Shown one piece after another: positions 7,005 through 46,773 of a stretch of DNA of 64,000 nucleotides. The stretch lies in assembly GCA_013299115.1 (NCBI GenBank), contig JAAFKA010000009.1, positions 62,001 to 126,000 on the forward strand. The letters are read 5' to 3'. A model generated the notes under the pieces. The model was not told the origin of the DNA, did not search any database, and worked only from the letters and a program-made list of their open reading frames with translations. Positions within the stretch are counted from its first letter, which is position 1. Every line of letters begins with the position of its first letter. The DNA is from Cytophagales bacterium (GTDB lineage: Bacteria > Bacteroidota > Bacteroidia > Cytophagales > Thermoflexibacteraceae). Made by a program: the position numbers and the translations under genes.

Positions 7005-8270
7005 TCACATTTCCCTTTCCACCCATTCATTTTCACTTTTGGCTATGACCAACGTAGCCACGCCGTTGCCTATGAGGTTGGTAATTGCCCTTGCCTCCGA
7101 CATAAAACGGTCAGTACCCAACAGCAAAGCCACGCCTTCTACGGGTATGATTTGTAGGGCAGCTAAGGTGGAGGTCAGCACCAACAACGCACTACCTGTA
7201 ACGGCAGCAGCCCCTTTGGAAGTTATCATCAAAATACCCAAAATGGTAAGTTCTTGGGCAAAAGTAAGGGGAATTTGATAGACTTGTGCCAAAAAAACAA
7301 CAGCCATAGACAAATACAACGTAGAACCGTCTAAGTTAAAAGAGTAGCCCGTTGGCAAAACCAAACTCACAATAGCAGGAGAGCAGCCGTAATTAGTCAG
7401 TTTGTCCATCATGCGAGGCAGTACAGTTTCTGAACTTGCCGTACCTAATACGATTAAAATTTCTTCTTTGATATAGACCAAAAACCGCCAAAGGTTAATT
7501 TTATTGTACCAACAAATGGCGTTGAGTACCACAAAAACAAACAAAAAAAGTGTGCCATACATGGTAGCCATGAGTTTGAGCAAGGGCAGCAAGGAGGCAA
7601 TACCAAACTTGCCTATGGTGTATGCCATGCCTCCAAAAGCCCCCAAAGGTGCTAACTTCATAACCATTGCCAACAAACGAAAGAAGATTTTTGCTAATTT
7701 GTCAAAGAATTTTAACACACTTTGCCCATTTTCGCCTGTTTTGTTGAGAGCAAGCCCAAATAAAACGGCAAAAAATAAGATTTGCAATAAATCTCCTTCA
7801 GCAAAAGATTTAAAAATATTGGTGGGAATGATGTGTATAAAAAACTCCAACCAATCCAAATTTTTTATTCCTTGGGTGTATTGGCTACTGTCATGTTTGG
7901 GTATGTGTTGCAAATTTAGTCCTGCCCCTGGCTGCACCCAATTACCCACCAATAAGCCAATAAACAACGCCAGCGTCGTAACAACTTCAAAATACAACAA
8001 GGTTTTTCCGCCCACTCTGCCCAATTTTTTGAGGTCTTGCATACTGCCAATGCCCGCAACCACTGTGAGAAAAACAATGGGAGGAATAACCATTTTGATA
8101 AGGTTGATAAAAACATCACCAACAAATTTGAGGGAGGCTGCCTGTTGAGGAAACAGCACGCCACCGACTATGCCCAGCACAATGGCAAGCAAAACCTGAA
8201 AAGTAAGAGAAGTGATAAATTTTTGCATAAAAAATAAAAAATTGTTGGATAACCATTTTTTAGTCATCAT
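7005..8270 (-). CDS. Dicarboxylate/amino acid:cation symporter (DAACS, GltP/DctA family)
   Basis: 421 residues from the first ATG. A second ATG 14 codons in (position 8228, MQKFITSLTFQVLLAI) matches the usual family N-terminus better and may be the real start. About eight membrane helices are visible, with the serine-rich re-entrant loop as GTASSETVLPRM and the substrate/cation motif LPTGYSFNLDGSTLYL. Family members import glutamate, aspartate or C4-dicarboxylates with Na+ or H+ across the inner membrane. No two-component regulator is adjacent. Confidence 0.9.
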   Translation of the reverse strand: MMTKKWLSNNFLFFMQKFITSLTFQVLLAIVLGIVGGVLFPQQAASLKFVGDVFINLIKMVIPPIVFLTVVAGIGSMQDLKKLGRVGGKTLLYFEVVTTLALFIGLLVGNWVQPGAGLNLQHIPKHDSSQYTQGIKNLDWLEFFIHIIPTNIFKSFAEGDLLQILFFAVLFGLALNKTGENGQSVLKFFDKLAKIFFRLLAMVMKLAPLGAFGGMAYTIGKFGIASLLPLLKLMATMYGTLFLFVFVVLNAICWYNKINLWRFLVYIKEEILIVLGTASSETVLPRMMDKLTNYGCSPAIVSLVLPTGYSFNLDGSTLYLSMAVVFLAQVYQIPLTFAQELTILGILMITSKGAAAVTGSALLVLTSTLAALQIIPVEGVALLLGTDRFMSEARAITNLIGNGVATLVIAKSENEWVEREM

Positions 8271-8285
8271 ATTGACTACCTTTTT

Positions 8286-11225
8286 TTACTCCACCACTTT
8301 AAACTCTACTCGTCTGTTTTTTTCTTTGCCACCTTCGGTTTTATTGTCGGCAATGGGCAGAGTTTCGCCAAAACCCTTGGCGGTGAGTTGGTTGGCAGTA
8401 GCCCCGTTTTTGGTAAGAAAAAGCAAAACAGCATTTGCCCGCCGTTGCGACAGGTCTATGTTAAAATCATGAGTACCTGCATCATCTGTATGCCCTTCTA
8501 TGCTGAGTTTCAGGGTTTTATTTGCTTGCAAAACCGCAGCCAATCGCAGCAAGTCGAGAATTGATTCGGGTCTTATGCCTTCGCTGTTGTGGTCGAAGTT
8601 GAGGGTACGCAACACAAAAGGTTTGCGGTTTTTGTTGGTCTTGTCCAAACTCGACAAGTTAATGGTAGTCAAATTTTCGGTTGGCGTAGCTGAATTTGGG
8701 TTGCTGCTTGGATTATTATTTGGATTGTTATTTTGATTACTGTTTTGATTACTGTTTTGATTACTGTTTTGATTGTTATTTTGCGTAGTCGGATTATTTG
8801 GCAACGAGTTGGTTATCAAGTTATTAGGTGTCAAATTGATGTGTACGCCACTACCAAAATAGCCTTCTTTTTCGGCAAAATAGGTATAAGGTTTATTGCG
8901 AGGCACAACAAAATAAAACCTGCCATTTTCGTCTGTGTCTATTCCTCCGCCACCTTTCATTAGTTTGGTGGTGTTTGCATTGGGGTTGTTGCCTGTGCTA
9001 TTGCTATTTGAATTGGTTGAATTGTTTAGACTATTTGGGTTATTAGGATTATTGGGCAAATTGTTGGTGTTTTTGTTATTTTGATTGCTAACACCTTGAT
9101 TGCCAAGAGGTTGCCAATAAATTTTTGCCGTTGTGGGGTTGCCGTTATCATCTGTTACTACACCCGAAATGGTCGTAACAGGTTCTGGTCTAAATCGTTG
9201 GGGGACAGTCATTTGGTAAATATCCAACTTGCCGTTGCCTTGCGTTTTGTCTGCCACCACAAAAGCCACTTCGCCATTGGTGCTAATATAAAAACTATCG
9301 TCAGCAGGGCTGTTGATAATTTTTCCCAAATTGACAGGGGCAGACCAGCTTGTCCACAAATTTTCGTCTAATCTTTTGGACATAAAAATATCGTAACCGC
9401 CAAAGCCCGAATGACCTTCTGAACAAAAATACAAGGTCTTGCCGTCGGGGTGCAAAAATGGTTTTTTCTCCGCAAAAGGCGTATTGATGGTGCTGCCCAA
9501 ATTGATAGCCTCCTGAAAACCACCTTTTTCATTGCGAACAGCCACCCAAATATCTGTGTTAAATTCGCCGCTGCCATGATAGTACAAACCGTTTTCGGGA
9601 TAGTTGGGCAAATAACCTCCTACGTTGCCCTTGCGGTCTGAGCAAAACAGAACTGCCTGATTATCAGGCGTAATACTCAAATCTGCCTCGTAGTCTTCGC
9701 TATTGACAGGGTAAGGAAAAACCTCTACTTTGTCAAACGAATTACCTTTTTTGTTTACATAGTAAATGTCGCCTTTGCCCAATCTTTTTTCGGTTTTCAA
9801 GACATAAAAAAACTCTGCCAAGCCACTGTAATTGCCAAATAAAACCAAAGTTTTGCCGTCTATGCTCACACTTAGCGGTATTTCGTGGCTTTTGGTGTTT
9901 ACTTTGCCCAAAGGTTGGGCAGGCTCAAATTGCAAAATATTATTTGAAATATTGCCCGAAACATTACTTGAACCATTAGGCGTAAGGTTTGGTTTGGGAT
10001 TGGCAACATAGACCTCCTCGCCTGTATTTTCTGTTCGGCGTGCAAAATACAGCGTATTGTTGTAAGCCAAAACAGGACTGTAATCTTGCAAATTGGAATT
10101 GACAGTTTTACCCAAATTAGAGAGAGCAATGTTGTCTTCGGGCATACCCAAAAGCAAAATCAAATTGCTGATTTGGTCGGCAATTTTGTTGCCTGTGGGG
10201 GCAGCACCAGCCTTTGCAAAAAGAGGTTGATAAATTTTGAGGTTGTTAATAGCCTCATTCCAATTTTTTTGCTGCAAAGCAGGGGCAATTAGGCGTTGCA
10301 GGGCAAGGTAGGCAGCATCGGCAGGGGCAAGTTTGCGAATGAACTTGTCGTACAAAGCCTTGTTGTTTGTGCCACAACCTTTGGCGTGGAGGTTTAGTTG
10401 GCAGAGCAAATTGAGGACAGTTATTTTTTCGGAGTCTGCCAATTCCTTTACCTTTTGCAAATCCTCCACACTATATTCGAAGCCGTAAAAAACGGGCAAA
10501 ATATTTTTCAGTTCTTCGGCAGTATAATAATTGAGAATGAGGTCGCAATGTTGCTCGTAAATTTTGCCTCCTTTGTCCCCATAACGGCGAACTGTGGTGG
10601 GGTTTAGCATTTCGGCAAATAAATCTTTGCGAATTTGCTGAATGACTTTGGCATTGGTAGAATTTTTATAGGTTGCCAAAAATTGGTTGCATTGGTCGTG
10701 CAGGGCATCTCGCAAGGCAAGCAAAGTATCTGCATCGGCTTCTTTGTTATAGACCTGCGAAACATAAATTTGCTCAAACGGATTGCGGTAAGGCAGGGTA
10801 GAAATAATGCTAAATGCCTCATTTTCAATGGCAATGGACAAGCCTGTTTGCAGTTGGCTTTCGCTAACCGAAAAAGATTTAAAAGTTTCTTTTTGAGCAG
10901 AGGTAAGATTAGTTGCCCATTTGCTGGCTTGTTGGGCGTGGCTGTATGCTTGTGCCAACCAATCAAAATGAGTTTGGAAATTGCGGTATTTAAAACTTTG
11001 GAGGGGCTGCGACTTTTTGAGGTTTTGCTGTTGCTCATAGTAAGTTTTGGCAAGTCCAAAATAAGCAATAGCATTTTTGGTGTCTTTTTTTGCAAGAGCC
11101 GAAAATTGCTGAATGGCTTGCTCATATTGCTTGTTGTGCAGCAAAGTGATAGCCTCTTTTTCGGTCTGTGCCAATGCCCAATGGCTGCACAAAGTAAAAA
11201 ACAAAATAAAACGGAGAAATAGCAT
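8286..11225 (-). CDS. PorE-like TPR / beta-propeller / CRD / OmpA-domain envelope protein
   Basis: 979 residues with a signal peptide (MLFLRFILFFTLCSHWALAQ). Order of parts: TPR helices (about 22-130), a long helical stretch, PD40-type propeller blades (about 385-680: TPDNQAVLFCSDR, HPDGKTLYFCSEGH, STNGEVAFVV), a carboxypeptidase-regulatory-like fold (ISGVVTDDNG to PYTYFAEKEGYFG, about 685-800), and a C-terminal OmpA domain binding peptidoglycan (IEGHTDDAG, LSQRRANAV, GFGETLP, NRRVEFKV). This four-part order is that of PorE, which anchors the type IX machinery, but Bacteroidota carry several paralogues. Two Asn-rich tracts (about 710-740 and 812-845) are unusual and partly coded by 15-bp DNA repeats. 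Confidence 0.8.
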   Translation of the reverse strand: MLFLRFILFFTLCSHWALAQTEKEAITLLHNKQYEQAIQQFSALAKKDTKNAIAYFGLAKTYYEQQQNLKKSQPLQSFKYRNFQTHFDWLAQAYSHAQQASKWATNLTSAQKETFKSFSVSESQLQTGLSIAIENEAFSIISTLPYRNPFEQIYVSQVYNKEADADTLLALRDALHDQCNQFLATYKNSTNAKVIQQIRKDLFAEMLNPTTVRRYGDKGGKIYEQHCDLILNYYTAEELKNILPVFYGFEYSVEDLQKVKELADSEKITVLNLLCQLNLHAKGCGTNNKALYDKFIRKLAPADAAYLALQRLIAPALQQKNWNEAINNLKIYQPLFAKAGAAPTGNKIADQISNLILLLGMPEDNIALSNLGKTVNSNLQDYSPVLAYNNTLYFARRTENTGEEVYVANPKPNLTPNGSSNVSGNISNNILQFEPAQPLGKVNTKSHEIPLSVSIDGKTLVLFGNYSGLAEFFYVLKTEKRLGKGDIYYVNKKGNSFDKVEVFPYPVNSEDYEADLSITPDNQAVLFCSDRKGNVGGYLPNYPENGLYYHGSGEFNTDIWVAVRNEKGGFQEAINLGSTINTPFAEKKPFLHPDGKTLYFCSEGHSGFGGYDIFMSKRLDENLWTSWSAPVNLGKIINSPADDSFYISTNGEVAFVVADKTQGNGKLDIYQMTVPQRFRPEPVTTISGVVTDDNGNPTTAKIYWQPLGNQGVSNQNNKNTNNLPNNPNNPNSLNNSTNSNSNSTGNNPNANTTKLMKGGGGIDTDENGRFYFVVPRNKPYTYFAEKEGYFGSGVHINLTPNNLITNSLPNNPTTQNNNQNSNQNSNQNSNQNNNPNNNPSSNPNSATPTENLTTINLSSLDKTNKNRKPFVLRTLNFDHNSEGIRPESILDLLRLAAVLQANKTLKLSIEGHTDDAGTHDFNIDLSQRRANAVLLFLTKNGATANQLTAKGFGETLPIADNKTEGGKEKNRRVEFKVVE
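8731..8785. repeat. 15-bp in-frame tandem repeat coding Asn/Gln/Ser
   Basis: TTTTGATTACTG recurs at 15-bp spacing three times and then degenerates. On the minus strand it codes NQNSNQNSNQN. The unit is a multiple of three, so gain or loss of units would keep the frame. Confidence 0.7.
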
Positions 11226-41680: not shown

Positions 41681-43204
41681 TTAAACCACAACCTCCTCCG
41701 CCATTTCCGCTATAAAATACTGCAAATCCTCTACCTGATAACCTTCGGGCAGTTCATATCCTTGCAAGAAAAACGTAGGCGTATGCGTAATTTGGTTGGC
41801 GTTACACCAATTTTTGTGGCTTTCTTCATTAAACCTTACAAGCAATTCCATTGCGGGTTTAAGACCTTGTAAGGTTTTTTCGTGTGAGGTTTTTTCGTGT
41901 AAGGTTTTTTCATCAAATTTTGTATAAACCACCACCACCTGCAACTCCTCCGAAAACTGCTGCAACAGAGTTTCTATTTTGGGTTTGGCTGCTTGGCAGG
42001 GCTTGCAATCGGGGTTGGTAACAAAAACCAACTGCACAGGCGAATCGACATTGCCCCAGACAATTTGTTGCGGAACTTCGTTAGTATTTATCTGCCTTTG
42101 CTGATGTAATAAATGAGTAAAAATATCAAAATTATATTTGAATTGGGCTACTTGTTTTTGCAAAACGGGAACTTGCAAGGAGGAAGTGAAAAAAGGTTTG
42201 AGAAAAAAATAGAAAAAAGGCAAGACGACAGCCCCCCACCCCCCGAAGGGGGAGTTTGACGAAATAACGTCAATTCCCCCTTCGGGGTGGTTCGGCACTC
42301 CGATTAGGGGGCTTAGGCTTAGAGTTATTTCAATCAACAAAATAGTTGCCACACCCAAACACAAAGGACACCAAACCTTTGCTATTTGCCACTGATACCA
42401 AATAGACCAAGCCACAAAAGGCAAACTGAGGTAAGCTAATAATTTGAAAATCAACAAATTATCTAAACCTAAGAGCAAAGCCAACAAAGCACCCGCAAAA
42501 TAGAAAAAGCCTATTTCTGCCCAACTAATTACACCAAATAAGGTAGCAGCAGGCGAAGTAAGCAAACTATTACAATCTGTTTTTTTATGGAAACTGCACA
42601 ATCTGGCTACCGCACTATTTTTATTCAACGACTGCCACAGCAGCAAAACAGACAACACTGTACCCACTAACTTTGTACCCAACCAAGCCAAACTTTCTAA
42701 ATTCGGCAACTGAAAAGCTGCATAACCTACCACCAACAAACAAGCCAACAGCAATAAAGGTAGGCGTAAGTTTTCTATTGTTTCTTGTTTTTTATTTGCT
42801 TTGTAGTTGGGTTCGGAGGAGGTGTCGGTTTTTTCTATGAGGAGGGTGATGCCAGACCAAAGTTGATGAAAAGAGGCAACAGACGACGAAAAAGACTTTC
42901 TTTGTGGGTCAAATAAAGTAACTTGGTCAGCTTCACAAGCCATAAGCACAGCAAAAGCACCATTTTTATACTGCACTAAGGCAGGCAAAGGAATTTCTGT
43001 TAATTGGGGAGCAGCCAACTCTACAGGTAAAACGGCTATCTGATATTGTCGCAATAAATGACGAATACTATTGACCGTAATACTTGTTTTGGCTATACTT
43101 TTTTGCAAAAAGTGTTTTGTATGCTGAACAGCTAAATTGGAAAGCAAAGAACTAATGACAGAGCAGAGATTTTGCTCGTTGGGTTGGGGTAGATAATCCA
43201 TCAT
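41681..43204 (-). CDS. C39-like / VKOR / thioredoxin fusion protein
   Basis: 507 residues. Residues 1-125 resemble the C39 peptidase of bacteriocin exporters (IPLPALVQYKNGAFAVLM, LFDP at 97-100, HQLWSGITLLIEK), but the site of the catalytic His (usually HFVVL) reads AFAVL, so it probably binds rather than cuts. Then about five membrane helices with the VKOR cysteines (CSFHKKTDCNSLLTSPAA and WCPLCLG), and a C-terminal thioredoxin domain with NPDCKPCQ. VKOR-thioredoxin fusions oxidise thiols and make disulfides in the periplasm. Last gene of the precursor operon. In-frame palindromic DNA disrupts the middle (42230-42313). Confidence 0.8.
   Translation of the reverse strand: MMDYLPQPNEQNLCSVISSLLSNLAVQHTKHFLQKSIAKTSITVNSIRHLLRQYQIAVLPVELAAPQLTEIPLPALVQYKNGAFAVLMACEADQVTLFDPQRKSFSSSVASFHQLWSGITLLIEKTDTSSEPNYKANKKQETIENLRLPLLLLACLLVVGYAAFQLPNLESLAWLGTKLVGTVLSVLLLWQSLNKNSAVARLCSFHKKTDCNSLLTSPAATLFGVISWAEIGFFYFAGALLALLLGLDNLLIFKLLAYLSLPFVAWSIWYQWQIAKVWCPLCLGVATILLIEITLSLSPLIGVPNHPEGGIDVISSNSPFGGWGAVVLPFFYFFLKPFFTSSLQVPVLQKQVAQFKYNFDIFTHLLHQQRQINTNEVPQQIVWGNVDSPVQLVFVTNPDCKPCQAAKPKIETLLQQFSEELQVVVVYTKFDEKTLHEKTSHEKTLQGLKPAMELLVRFNEESHKNWCNANQITHTPTFFLQGYELPEGYQVEDLQYFIAEMAEEVVV
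41850..41915. repeat. Short in-frame tandem repeat within the fusion gene
   Basis: GTAAGGTTTTTTCGTGT-type units of 15-18 bp repeat three times, coding EKTLHEKTSHEKTLQG. The piece GACCTTGTAAGGT resembles the arm of the 17254 palindrome family. Confidence 0.5.
42230..42313. repeat. Palindromic G/C-rich repeat inside the fusion gene
   Basis: AGCCCCCCACCCCCCGAAGG with GGGAGTTTGACG on the left and the reverse-complement arm to AGGGGGCT on the right. It keeps the frame (coded segment NHPEGGIDVISSNSPFGGWG) and lies between membrane helices. It is the same sort of insertion as at 19917-20078. Confidence 0.7.
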
Positions 43205-43210
43205 AACTAT

Positions 43211-44491
43211 TTATTTGGCTTGTTTAATTTTTGCAAGAGTTTCTTCATACAAAGAGGTATCCTCGTTGGCAGCTTTTACTAACCTTATAACTTTTTCCAT
43301 TATTACAACAGCCCTTTCTTTCTGTTTTAGCTTAGCCAACAAGTGTGCTAAGGTAAAGTAATAAGCCACATTATTTTTCTTAGCCACTACTTGTTCCATC
43401 CACGTTACTGCTTTTTGGAGGTGTGCAACATTGTTTGTATTTTGATAAAATGTCCACGCCACCTCATTGTATTGTTCCTCGTTTTCTATAAATTTCTCCC
43501 TTTCCCCTATGTATAAGTTGGCGTATTGTTCCCATTCTTTCGTTACTTTGTAATACTGCTGGTCTGCCAAATACAAATTAAAGCCTAATCTATTGGTACG
43601 TATAGGGTCATTCGATAATTTATTATTCAACAATTTGTATGAGATTACATCAGCCTCATCAGCAAAAGTAGTTAGGTTAATTTCTCTTCGCATCACATTT
43701 GTAATCATAGCATTTAGGCTGTCTTGCGTAAAAGTAGCTGGAAGTAACTTAGGATTTTTAGTATAGCAGGCAAGCAAATAGCTATTGGACTTACTTAAAT
43801 TTTTTGAAATAAAGCTAATTGTAGGGTGTAAAAATAAATGTTCTATCGGATAATTCATATAATACTGCTCCAAAAGCATCGTTGTTTCTTTCGGATAATC
43901 ATAAAAATTATAATTACTGCTAATAATTTCTTTTAAATCTGTTTCACTTAATCTATCCAGATTCAACAATAAGGAAGGGTAAGCACTTAAAAAATTTTTG
44001 GCAGCTATAGATTTTATTTGCGTAAGGTCTGACAAAAAAGGTTGAAATTGTTTAACAGGAAGTACCTGCTTTGGTTGTGGTTCAATAACTTTTTTGCCTA
44101 TTTGGATAAACTCCTGTGGTTTTTGATAACCTTCTGCTCTATAATGTATGCTGTCGTTTACATCTATAAACAGAAAAGTAGGATAAGCAACCACTTCAAA
44201 TTGGCGATTGAGGAGAGTACCAATATTGCTTTCCATGTCTAATTTTATACAAATAAAATTTTGATTATAGAAAGTAGCTACACTATCATTGGTAAACACT
44301 TCTTTCTCCATTACTTTGCAAGGTTTGCACCAAGAAGTATAGCAATCTAAAAAGATAAATTTCTTTTCTTTTTTGGCTTTTTGTTTGATTTCTGCCCAAG
44401 TACCTTTTTCAAAATTTATGCTATTTTGGGCAGATAAATTTGTACAAAATAGCACTAAAAATATACTGCTAATTGATTTAATGAAGTTCAT
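43211..44491 (-). CDS. Thioredoxin-fold protein with C-terminal helical repeats, secreted
   Basis: 426 residues with a signal peptide (MNFIKSISSIFLVLFCTNLS to AQ). Residues 25-140 are a thioredoxin domain with DCYTSWCKPCKVME and the cis-Pro segment VVAYPTFLFID. The rest is helical, TPR-like. It acts in the periplasm, probably on the cysteines of secreted proteins. It ends 6 bp before the VKOR fusion gene, so the two redox proteins are co-transcribed, which fits a shared role in making disulfides in the precursor peptide. Confidence 0.8.
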   Translation of the reverse strand: MNFIKSISSIFLVLFCTNLSAQNSINFEKGTWAEIKQKAKKEKKFIFLDCYTSWCKPCKVMEKEVFTNDSVATFYNQNFICIKLDMESNIGTLLNRQFEVVAYPTFLFIDVNDSIHYRAEGYQKPQEFIQIGKKVIEPQPKQVLPVKQFQPFLSDLTQIKSIAAKNFLSAYPSLLLNLDRLSETDLKEIISSNYNFYDYPKETTMLLEQYYMNYPIEHLFLHPTISFISKNLSKSNSYLLACYTKNPKLLPATFTQDSLNAMITNVMRREINLTTFADEADVISYKLLNNKLSNDPIRTNRLGFNLYLADQQYYKVTKEWEQYANLYIGEREKFIENEEQYNEVAWTFYQNTNNVAHLQKAVTWMEQVVAKKNNVAYYFTLAHLLAKLKQKERAVVIMEKVIRLVKAANEDTSLYEETLAKIKQAK

Positions 44492-44503
44492 AATTGAAAA
44501 AAG

Positions 44504-45565
44504 TTACTGTAAAACAAATTCTATACGCCGATTGATTGCCCTATTTTTTTCGTTGGTATTGGGAACTTTGGGCTGTGTTTCTCCTAAACCTTTGGCTGTG
44601 ATATTATTTTTATTTATTCCTTTGGTTATCAAATAGTTAGCTATCCAAGTTGCTCGTTGTTCAGCTAATTTTTTGTTATACAAAGTTGTATTCGTATTAT
44701 CTGTATGGGCTGTGATTTGTAGTTTCATTGTAGGTTGCTTAACCATAAAATTGTATAAACTATCTAAACTTTGGTAGCTATTTTTAGTAGGCATAACTTC
44801 ATTTTTATCATATTGCAAGTTGTCAAAAATATAAATTTTAGAACTAATAAAAGTATTTTTTTGCTTATAACTATTGGTTTCCTCGTCTGTTGCCTCTCGC
44901 AACAATACATCATCTATGAAAGTGTAATCAATCCTATTTTCAAAATGTTTGATAGGTTGAAAAAGAAAACAACCAAAGTAAATATATTTTTCGTCTCCTG
45001 TGGCTTCAAAATAACCCTTGACCTCATACCACTTGCTTTGCTCTACCAAACTATCAGGGGCAAACGATATTTGTGGAGTTTGTCTAATAATATGCAAGTT
45101 TTTTTGTTTTGCAAATAGATTTTCTTTTGTCAATAAACAACCCAAAGGAATATTGAATACGCCATTTTGTTTAGTCGCAAACCAATAAGAAGTATGGTAA
45201 ACTGTACCTTTTTTCAGTGGTTTGGACAATTGAGTATATAAATATTCTGCAATCGTATCTTTGTGAACAGTTCCAATCATTGATGAAGACTGTCCAAGCA
45301 TTGTATTACCTGTGTGTGGCAAAAAAGCAGCCTCATTAACTTCTTTTTTATACAATTTACATTTTTCTATTATTTTGGTATCATACAATTCGGCAGCCCA
45401 GCTATGCTGCCAATTTTCGCAAGGTGAAAATTGTTTGGTCATGCTTGCCAAATTATCACAAGGCACAGAGCCGTGCAACTCAAAACTTGGATTTTTTAGC
45501 AAGTTTTGGGCAAATGATAAAGTTGATAACATCACTAAAAATAGAGTGAATGGACAGGTAAACAT
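44504..45565 (-). CDS. OmpA-domain outer-membrane/cell-wall protein
   Basis: 353 residues with a signal peptide (MFTCPFTLFLVMLSTLSFAQ). The N-terminal part (about 20-220, NLLKNPSFELHG) looks like a beta-sandwich as in carbohydrate-binding folds. The C-terminus has an OmpA peptidoglycan-binding domain: ITAHTDNTN, LAEQRATWIANYLI, GLGETQP, NRRIEFVL. It comes 46 bp after the precursor gene, across a hairpin, and 12 bp before the thioredoxin-like gene. Its part in the locus is unknown. Confidence 0.8.
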   Translation of the reverse strand: MFTCPFTLFLVMLSTLSFAQNLLKNPSFELHGSVPCDNLASMTKQFSPCENWQHSWAAELYDTKIIEKCKLYKKEVNEAAFLPHTGNTMLGQSSSMIGTVHKDTIAEYLYTQLSKPLKKGTVYHTSYWFATKQNGVFNIPLGCLLTKENLFAKQKNLHIIRQTPQISFAPDSLVEQSKWYEVKGYFEATGDEKYIYFGCFLFQPIKHFENRIDYTFIDDVLLREATDEETNSYKQKNTFISSKIYIFDNLQYDKNEVMPTKNSYQSLDSLYNFMVKQPTMKLQITAHTDNTNTTLYNKKLAEQRATWIANYLITKGINKNNITAKGLGETQPKVPNTNEKNRAINRRIEFVLQ

Positions 45566-45579
45566 AAATTTTAGTAAAA

Positions 45580-45605
45580 TAGCCCTTAGTCTTCACTAAG
45601 GGCTA
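45580..45605 (-). terminator. Attenuator-like hairpin after the precursor gene
   Basis: TAGCCCTTAGT pairs with ACTAAGGGCTA (11 bp, GAAG loop) and is followed on the minus strand by TTTT. It lies directly after the precursor stop. It would let the small gene be transcribed more than the genes behind it. Confidence 0.65.
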
Positions 45606-45611
45606 AATAAA

Positions 45612-45818
45612 TTAACAACCACAGGTAATACTACATCTTTTAGCTCCTTCACCATCACTACCCCACATAGCTTCGCAACCACCAGTGCTACAAATTTTAG
45701 CACAAGCACGAGGTCTATCTACTTCAAAATCACTGCCCCCAGTAATTTTCTTCACTTGCTCTTTACTCATTTCAAAAGCACCAAATTTACTTTTCAAACT
45801 TTCTAACGACTTTTTCAT
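45612..45818 (-). CDS. Double-glycine-leader peptide precursor with six-cysteine core
   Basis: 68 residues. The leader MKKSLESLKSKFGAFEMSKE then QVKKITGG (28 residues) is of the Bacteroidota natural-product-precursor type with a Gly-Gly cleavage site. The core (29-68) has cysteines at 39, 43, 48, 62, 66 and 68, including the ending RCSITCGC. First gene of the operon. A C39-like domain with VKOR and thioredoxins follows, suggesting a disulfide-bonded secreted peptide. No ABC exporter or modification enzyme such as a lanthipeptide synthase is in the window. Confidence 0.8.
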   Translation of the reverse strand: MKKSLESLKSKFGAFEMSKEQVKKITGGSDFEVDRPRACAKICSTGGCEAMWGSDGEGAKRCSITCGC

Positions 45819-45871
45819 CTTTTTACTTTGTTTTTTAGGTTTATGTTAAACTCCAAAACAAAACCTATTGA

Positions 45872-45902
45872 CAAAAATAGTGATTTGTTTTGTTGGTGCA
45901 AA
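45872..45902 (-). promoter_or_regulatory. Promoter of the precursor operon
   Basis: Read on the minus strand: TTTTG ending at 45899, 19 bases, TATTTTTG (TAnnTTTG; plus-strand CAAAAATA at 45872-45879). It lies 54 bp before the precursor start and divergent from the XRE gene. Confidence 0.65.
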
Positions 45903-46020
45903 ATTAAACAAGAGTTTTGATTTTGTTGGTATCAAAAAGTTCATTAAAATAAACGAAAAGTTATTTGTTTATGCTAAAAAGTTTAGCTACTTTTAAGAGT
46001 AACTTAAACTATGCTATTTT

Positions 46021-46437
46021 ATGTCAGTCAATTCACGTATTCGCCAAGTCAGAGAAAAGAAAAACTTATTAAGGAGAGAAGTAGCCAGTCAGTTGGGCAT
46101 TTCTGAAGTTGCTTATGGCAAGATAGAAAATGAAAAAACAAAAGTAAAGGCAGAAACCCTAAAAAAGATAGCAGAAATTTTAGATGAACCCGTAGAAAAG
46201 TTTTTTCAAGAAAGCAAAATCTGCAATATTATCCAAAACAACGAAAATACAGAACAAATCAATCAAAATGTAGAAACAGTTACCAATGAAACTGATATAA
46301 AAAAGATAGAAGAATTGTATATCAATTTGTTGCAAAGCAAAGACAATGAAATCAATCTACTCAAAGCATTATTGACAAGTAAAGATGACAAAATAGCTTG
46401 GTTAGAAAAAGAATTGGTTGCGTTGAAAGGAAAGTAA
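46021..46437 (+). CDS. XRE-family DNA-binding regulator with coiled coil
   Basis: 138 residues. Residues 5-60 are a Cro/C1 helix-turn-helix (RREVASQLGISEVAYGKIEN with KVKAETLKKIAEIL). A Gln/Asn-rich linker and a C-terminal coiled coil (IEELYINLLQSKDNEINLLK) follow for dimerisation. It is divergent from the precursor gene across 202 bp, so it probably controls that operon. No toxin partner is next to it. Confidence 0.85.
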   Translation: MSVNSRIRQVREKKNLLRREVASQLGISEVAYGKIENEKTKVKAETLKKIAEILDEPVEKFFQESKICNIIQNNENTEQINQNVETVTNETDIKKIEELYINLLQSKDNEINLLKALLTSKDDKIAWLEKELVALKGK

Positions 46438-46773
46438 GTTTTCTATGGCTTCTTGCTTTTTATTTTCTTTGTAGTTAGGTTCGGAGGTGGCGGTTTTTTC
46501 TATTAGGAGAGTAATGCCAGACCATGATTTGGCAAAGTCGGCTATATTTTCGGTGGTTTCTCCTTTTTGAGTGTCAAAAATGCTAATTTTGTCTGTTGCT
46601 ACTTTCTTTATTACAGCAAACTTACCACTCTCCTAACGAATGAGTGCTGGAAGTGGAATTTCTATAAGTTCAGAAGGTGTAAGTTGCACAGGAAGAGCTA
46701 CAAAAACATCACTTTGTGCCAGTACAAAAAAGCTATTGAGCAACAAAAATGTTGCAAGGAGTATTTTTTTCAT
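46438..46773 (-). pseudogene. Decayed C39-like-domain gene, paralogue of the fusion protein's N-terminus
   Basis: Minus-strand frame from ATG 46773: MKKILLATFLLLNSFFVLAQ (a signal peptide), then VALPVQLTPSELIEIPLPAL, an in-frame TAG at 46633-46635, then SGKFAVIKKVATDKISIFDT, SWSGITLLIEKTATSEPNY and KENKKQEAIEN. This parallels the 43204 protein (VLPVELAAPQLTEIPLPAL, SGITLLIEKTDTSSEPNY, KANKKQETIEN). It lacks the VKOR and thioredoxin parts and ends in the regulator gene. It is a remnant of a second, secreted version. Confidence 0.8.

Follow-up and report, generated by a model that had tools for sequence, protein, structure and literature searches.

The locus described here lies in a stretch of 64,000 nucleotides from the genome of a Cytophagales bacterium (assembly GCA_013299115.1, contig JAAFKA010000009.1, positions 62,001 to 126,000), referred to below as the window, and consists of four closely spaced genes on the minus strand. 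These genes encode, in order, a double-glycine (GG) precursor peptide, an OmpA-type protein, a thioredoxin-like protein, and a fusion of a C39-like domain with vitamin K epoxide reductase (VKOR) and thioredoxin domains, with only 12 and 6 bp separating the last three of them. An earlier note on this DNA had reported this gene order along with a 68-residue GG precursor with six core cysteines; both are present, and the three proteins other than the precursor have Pfam matches. The parts of the precursor and of the fusion, whose possible relationship as substrate and enzyme is the subject of this analysis, are as follows in window coordinates.

45612–45818, minus strand: precursor peptide, 68 aa, with a leader that ends KKITGG and a core with six cysteines
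45735–45818, minus strand: precursor leader, 28 aa, ending in GG
45615–45734, minus strand: precursor core, 40 aa, six cysteines, net charge -1
41681–43204, minus strand: C39-like/VKOR/thioredoxin fusion, 507 aa, six predicted transmembrane helices
42815–43204, minus strand: C39-like domain of the fusion, residues 1-130, with N12 and A83 at the aligned catalytic positions; proposed to bind leaders
42710–42766, minus strand: extra transmembrane helix, residues 147-165, ahead of VKOR helix 1
42305–42682, minus strand: VKOR core, residues 175-300 (Pfam stretch 175-296), with C203-x7-C211 and C279PLC282
41684–42088, minus strand: thioredoxin domain, residues 373-507, with C400KPC403 and a TP (cis-Pro) motif

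The precursor leader carries M at -12, Q at -8, V at -7 and I at -4 ahead of the GG, which makes it a conservative variant, with letters that are not identical, of the leader consensus of peptidase-containing ATP-binding cassette transporters (PCATs). That consensus, as given for PCAT1 in the accessible part of the source, is L(-12)xxxE(-8)L(-7)xxxxGG, with positions -7 and -12 forming a binding knot (PMC6959990). The precursor is unlikely to be a chance open reading frame (ORF), since the same kind of peptide occurs at homologous fusion loci and since its leader (SLKSKFGAF..S....K.ITGG) resembles that of a precursor from another family of the same order (SLKEKFGKF..S....K.ITGG, locus L049). 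The precursor scores below the cut-off of every family model (12.9 bits against TIGR04149, which has a cut-off of 25) and was unmatched by the lanthipeptide L1a leader model (NF038153) at E <= 1. Its assignment as a lanthipeptide or radical SAM peptide was rejected on the basis of these two models, and no radical SAM enzyme occurs among the five proteins scanned at the operon. A leader-like DNA pattern was found at 80 sites across the genome versus 36 for the reversed pattern, and is too unspecific to be of use.

In a sample of 390 genomes from the order, 66 encode proteins that match the fusion (E <= 1e-15). Runella, Fibrella, Spirosoma, Emticicia (a partial match), Pedobacter, Mucilaginibacter and Chitinophaga are among the genera with a match. 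Within the family of the window's organism, the fusion was found only in that organism's genus (2 of 13 genomes). Two sets of neighbourhoods were compared, the first comprising 40 and the second, with shorter flanks, comprising 45, of which 43 hold a full fusion. The sets share a few genomes (Runella, Fibrella and Emticicia), and combined counts refer to unique peptides. A candidate GG-leader precursor with at least four cysteines lies near 32 of the 40 fusions in set 1 and 29 of the 43 in set 2. A PCAT is found near the fusion at 27/40 and 19/43 loci (with a C39 motif also present in 27 and 18 of those loci), and an HlyD-type protein at 30/40 and 13/43. Domain matches among the neighbouring proteins that were scanned (78 of 114) include Thioredoxin (18), AhpC-TSA (16), UDPGT glycosyltransferase (12) and HTH_3 (7).

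Among candidate precursors with at least three cysteines, the number of cysteines is even in 45 of 48 in set 1 and 40 of 46 in set 2, or 83 of 92 unique precursors combined (77 of 86 once similar cores are removed); the core from the window was excluded from these counts. Decoy ORFs with the same motif have an even number in 8 of 18 cases. A control group chosen by lanthipeptide leaders gave a weaker contrast than the decoys, with even numbers in 15 of 22 peptides (p 0.014 in a one-sided Fisher test). Setting aside locus L237, which has a peptide with three cysteines and a VKOR match some 2 kb away, changes this to 15 of 21 (p 0.033). This control drew on 29 of 30 loci (L252 was omitted), one of which could not be parsed, and contains several near-identical paralogues. 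As judged from these counts, the precursor cysteines are probably paired. The leaders agree with the PCAT consensus, having a hydrophobic residue at -12 in 92/92 and Q or E at -8 in 86/92, neither of which was required by the search pattern. The pattern demands a hydrophobic residue at -4 and a limited set at -7, and these two positions are therefore not evidence; it also admits false small ORFs with no or one cysteine and misses some precursors. On average the cores carry a negative net charge (mean -2.4 for precursors of loci L043-L134). Most antimicrobial peptides are not acidic, and the charge of the cores may hint at a role other than an antimicrobial one. For the peptide of the window, the earlier note had suggested a perhaps antibacterial or signalling role.

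The fusion matches the Pfam families VKOR (55.7 bits, cut-off 27.5) and Peptidase_C39 (45.2 bits, cut-off 22) and just misses the cut-off for Thioredoxin_8 (26.7 bits, cut-off 27), and its predicted structure has a mean predicted local distance difference test (pLDDT) score of 86.7. The N-terminal domain has the C39 fold, as its model matches the C39 structures of PCAT1, LahT and ComA (Z up to 15.5) as well as the C39-like domain of HlyB (3zua, Z 13.7), and profile comparison relates it to the C39 domains of PCATs with a probability of 99.3%. The position aligned with the catalytic cysteine is occupied by asparagine in 26 of 38 fusions and by cysteine in none of them (six have gaps), and the catalytic histidine is kept in 2 of 38. 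For the fusions of set 2 the corresponding figures are 0/41 for cysteine (four gaps) and 1/41 for histidine. The earlier note had proposed that the leader is bound or removed, and removal by this domain was rejected because the catalytic cysteine and histidine are lost on alignment. As far as such alignments can tell, the C39-like domain is very probably unable to cut leaders, and it probably binds them instead.

In contrast to the protease site, the cysteines expected of a thiol oxidase are fully conserved. C203, C211, C279, C282, C400 and C403 are invariant in all 42 readable rows of a 43-row alignment (the row for L013 was unreadable) and in all 41 fusions of set 2 that are not identical to members of set 1. 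The fusion thus has the cysteine pair in a C-x7-C loop and the CxxC motif that typify the VKOR family, and structures that match its model include the VKORs of human and Synechococcus as well as thioredoxin folds like that of DsbA. A search of the PDB from one family member gave no bacterial VKOR among its matches, and alignment-based searches did give bacterial VKOR. Together with the even cysteine counts and the conserved neighbourhood, the invariant redox cysteines bear out the suggestion in the earlier note that the operon encodes disulfide-making machinery for a GG peptide.

Where in the cell these disulfides might form depends on the orientation of the fusion in the membrane. Alignment to Synechococcus VKOR begins at residue 16-17 of that protein and at residue 167-168 of the model, where VKOR helix 1 starts at residue 166-168, and the helix at residues 147-165 is therefore extra. 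A total of six helices places the C39-like domain and the thioredoxin domain on one face of the membrane. In the fusions, the mean number of lysine plus arginine residues (K+R) is 3.8 in the segment that precedes the extra helix, 4.2 in the loop with C-x7-C, 1.9 around CxxC and 5.7 in the segment that follows helix 6; the three remaining loops average 0.4, 0.2 and 0.5. The active-site side has more K+R than the other side in 38/38 fusions and in 41/41 fusions of set 2. For comparison, 29 proteins from a scan of the phylum were read and 16 with VKOR followed by thioredoxin and no C39 domain were picked by eye as controls; the other 13 comprised six VKORs of small size, two fusions with C39 (L176 and L194) and five proteins of other or cut architecture. 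Another group of VKORs was excluded as controls, these being mostly of a different VKOR type or within larger proteins of other make-up. A single automated procedure, which failed to segment 2 of the 16 controls and 6 of the 38 fusions, found the active-site side to be richer in K+R in 32/32 fusions versus 0/14 controls, and detected the extra helix in 29/32 versus 0/14. Controls have a mean K+R of 6.4 in the loops whose counterparts in known VKORs are cytoplasmic and 1.9 in the active-site loops, whereas the fusions have 0.7 and 5.8, respectively. The charge pattern in the stretches of Synechococcus VKOR that were inspected, judged by eye, is like that of the controls.

Given the positive-inside rule, this pattern points to a reversed orientation of the fusion, and its redox sites probably face the cytoplasm as far as charge and helix counting allow one to predict. 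The C39-like domain has no signal peptide by eye. A cytoplasmic orientation would also explain why a leader-binding fold is attached to a thiol oxidase, because the peptidase domain of PCATs is cytosolic, according to the accessible part of PMC6959990, and the leader would thus be present only on that side. By its title alone, a 2017 study by Hibender et al. reportedly links the topology of the VKOR of Aeropyrum pernix to disulfides in two compartments, and on that basis the title suggests a precedent for a reversed VKOR. The statement of the earlier note that the cysteines are oxidised in the periplasm is probably wrong, as in the inferred topology the redox sites, like the C39-like domain, face the cytoplasm.

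The explanation that we favour, with a confidence slightly above even, is that the fusion is a dedicated leader-guided membrane thiol oxidase which installs the disulfides of the six-cysteine peptide, most likely on the cytoplasmic side, before the peptide is exported by a PCAT. The non-catalytic C39-like domain would bind the GG leader and deliver the core to the fused thioredoxin domain, which would oxidise pairs of core cysteines. The VKOR core would then re-oxidise the thioredoxin domain and pass the electrons to quinone. As the C39-like and thioredoxin domains would most likely lie on the cytoplasmic side of the inner membrane, oxidation would precede export, and a PCAT encoded elsewhere would remove the leader and export the core with an HlyD-type adaptor. 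The broader proposition, that Bacteroidota possess a widespread class of peptides matured by a leader-guided, topologically inverted and quinone-linked VKOR and exported by PCATs as folded cores, seems to us evenly balanced; under it, disulfide formation would be a leader-dependent cytoplasmic modification like those of ribosomally synthesized and post-translationally modified peptides (RiPPs).

Several observations weigh against this explanation. No precursor was detected near 8/40 and 11/43 fusions, and the lanthipeptide-leader controls also lean towards even cysteine counts. The alignment decides whether the protease site counts as lost, since the fusion in the window has a cysteine (C14) two residues away from the position aligned with the catalytic one, and 2/38 fusions have a cysteine and 8/38 a histidine no more than three residues from the aligned positions. 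The sidedness is predicted from the positive-inside rule and from a count of helices; the extra helix went undetected in some fusions, and close relatives are present among the 14 controls (only a few residues distinguish L178 from L179). Cytoplasmic reductants would counter disulfides formed in the cytoplasm. Thioredoxin-like neighbours are common (18/78), and that of the window appears by eye to have a signal peptide, which suits periplasmic thiol chemistry. Finally, exporter genes lie outside the operon, and any assignment of a particular PCAT to it is presumptive.

Alternatively, the same system could operate with its VKOR and thioredoxin sites in the periplasm, as in ordinary VKORs, so that the peptide is oxidised after export. 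This possibility, which we regard as real but doubtful, agrees with the established topology of VKOR-thioredoxin proteins, with the signal peptides seen by eye on the OmpA-type and thioredoxin-like proteins, and with the thioredoxin-type neighbours at other fusion loci. It would, however, leave unexplained why the charges are distributed in mirror image to those of the VKOR-thioredoxin proteins without C39 (32/32 versus 0/14), and it would require the C39-like domain to be translocated without a signal peptide to a compartment where it would meet no leader. It is also conceivable, though improbable, that the fusion is a general cellular thiol oxidase which the precursor merely adjoins. Such a role would account for the fusions that lack a detected precursor and for the genome of the window's organism, in which no DsbB match was found and the single VKOR match is the fusion itself, but it fits poorly with the candidate precursors of at least four cysteines near 32/40 and 29/43 fusions, with the attachment of the oxidase to a leader-recognition fold, and with a distribution of 66 of 390 genomes, which is ill suited to a housekeeping enzyme. 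Slightly more improbable still is that the cysteines form thioether rings or bind metal and that the fusion keeps them reduced or repairs them, for although another contig of the genome carries a cluster for a class I lanthipeptide (Lant_dehydr and LANC_like), the precursor fails the lanthipeptide leader model that three sites on that contig pass, and the characterised VKOR domains are known to oxidise thiols.

The operon itself contains no exporter gene. The earlier note had advised a search for one elsewhere in the genome, and this search located two full PCATs, on contigs C21 (783 aa) and C56 (704 aa), each with Peptidase_C39, ABC_membrane and ABC_tran domains. A stretch of 20 residues resembling the leader of the window (75% identity, E 0.0175) lies about 3 kb past the PCAT on C21 (L083 13094-13255), and is possibly a relic of the same precursor leader that continues into unrelated sequence. 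An HlyD_3 protein on contig C4 shares 61% identity with such a protein in a sister species, where it comes after a cut ORF that resembles the fusion. Processing and export are most likely carried out by a PCAT encoded elsewhere, and the export machinery is probably shared in trans, with either PCAT being a candidate partner.

Other features of these contigs may be recorded here. On C56, the PCAT, a thioredoxin-like protein (AhpC-TSA) and a hydrophobic protein with no Pfam match are encoded consecutively (L084 6734-10132). The HlyD_3 protein on C4 belongs to a class I lanthipeptide cluster with Lant_dehydr and LANC_like (L135 9257-16282), and the three matches to L1a-type leaders in the genome are all on this contig. 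At other fusion loci, UDP-glycosyltransferase-like genes lie beside the fusion (12/78, in the L043-L082 neighbourhoods), and in some of the peptides glycosylation may accompany the disulfides.

The remaining features of the operon and its surroundings are as follows.

45580–45605, minus strand: terminator-like hairpin between the precursor and OmpA-type genes
44504–45565, minus strand: OmpA-type protein, 353 aa (Pfam OmpA, 60.7 bits), with a signal peptide by eye
43211–44491, minus strand: thioredoxin-like protein, 426 aa (Pfam Thioredoxin_7, 51.5 bits), with active site CKPC and a signal peptide by eye
46021–46437, plus strand: divergent HTH_3 regulator, 138 aa (Pfam HTH_3, 48.6 bits)
46435–46773, minus strand: decayed remnant of a second C39-like/VKOR gene, 46% identical to fusion residues 23-146, with internal stops
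42230–42287, plus strand: copy of a dispersed palindromic repeat, about 58 bp, which is read in frame and falls in the loop of the fusion that joins helices 5 and 6

The attenuator-like hairpin that the earlier note had placed after the precursor gene stands up to closer analysis, having a folding energy of -18.2 kcal/mol and being the single terminator-like site found in 45400-46100. None of 200 shuffles equalled it for a 38-nt stretch (z -5.9), and one of 200 was as good for a 65-nt stretch (z -3.4). The hairpin is probably an attenuator that yields more precursor than enzyme. A protein 29% identical (blastp) to the OmpA-type protein sits between the precursor and the PCAT at L072. The thioredoxin-like protein, which is probably periplasmic, has a weak match to tetratricopeptide repeats in its C-terminal part (TPR_8, 19.5 bits, below cut-off), and the HTH_3 protein possibly regulates the operon. 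The operon was considered and rejected as a defence system, as the only PADLOC matches were ZorB/MotB-like for the OmpA-type protein and HTH-type for the regulator; the precursor, the thioredoxin-like protein and the fusion gave no PADLOC match. Like the window, with its fusion and the remnant, the sister species has two sites that match the fusion.

The palindromic repeat has 77 matches in the genome (palindromes being counted on both strands, and 40 of 120 candidates scored), and residues 301-320 of the fusion, which correspond to the repeat region, have pLDDT values of 51-56. The repeat also occurs in frame at three places in the PCAT on C21 (L083, about 7968-8474), and repeat-like peptide stretches were seen by eye in an HlyD protein (L135) and at the end of a large surface protein (L084 10-5625). 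It recalls the palindromic elements found inside Rickettsia genes.

Disulfide formation is usually left to the periplasm. If the favoured explanation is true, bacteria would have a cytoplasmic-side route to disulfides in which the substrate is chosen by its leader, and this route could be a tool for producing disulfide peptides in the bacterial cytoplasm. The analysis names an enzyme family that is open to testing, and the fusion gene beside GG peptides with even numbers of cysteines provides a simple mark for finding further peptides in Bacteroidota.

The closest known system is that of the bacteroidetocins, proposed as class IIf, which have a GG leader, four cysteines thought to be disulfide-bonded and a PCAT-type exporter, and whose dedicated thiol oxidoreductase attenuates the toxin when deleted, according to the accessible part of PMC6671954. 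The two systems have in common GG peptides of Bacteroidota and a dedicated thiol oxidoreductase. The peptide of the window nevertheless falls outside the class, as bacteroidetocins have a leader of 15 aa and four cysteines versus 28 aa and six in the window. Bacteroidetocins also rely on a separate protein with five transmembrane helices and a separate thiol oxidoreductase, in contrast to the single fusion, and their operon holds a PCAT, whereas that of the window has neither a PCAT nor the five-helix protein and its thioredoxin-like protein is of another kind. The gene set on contig C56 resembles that of the bacteroidetocins in gene content.

Among VKOR proteins, that of Synechococcus (3kp9, 4nv2, 4nv5 and 4nv6) shares with the fusion the fold of the VKOR core (Z 12.7-14.2), the four VKOR cysteines and the C-terminal thioredoxin domain, but the fusion differs from VKOR-thioredoxin proteins of this type in its N-terminal C39-like domain, its extra helix and its mirror-image charge pattern. 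The VKOR of Aeropyrum pernix is archaeal, and the title of the study names neither a leader-binding domain nor a peptide substrate. Domain databases may already describe VKOR domains fused to C39. HlyB provides a parallel for the N-terminal domain, since its degenerate C39-like domain recruits substrate without cutting it, as stated in the accessible part of PMC6363468. HlyB (3zua) and the fusion share the C39 fold and the loss of the catalytic cysteine, but the domain belongs to an ABC transporter in HlyB and to a thiol oxidase in the window.

The accessible part of a VKOR phylogeny (PMC4555120) mentions neither C39 nor peptidase, and that of a survey of Bacteroidales RiPPs (PMC10352776) mentions C39 transporters and does not mention VKOR, thiol or disulfide. 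No such system turned up in the accessible portions of the literature on VKOR with bacteriocin or on vitamin K epoxide reductase with C39. That GG peptides of Bacteroidota can depend on thiol oxidoreductases for full activity is known already, because the bacteroidetocins, as far as their published description was accessible, show it. What the locus in the window adds is the fusion of a probable leader-binding domain to the oxidase, the spread of this fusion, and a topology that appears to be reversed.

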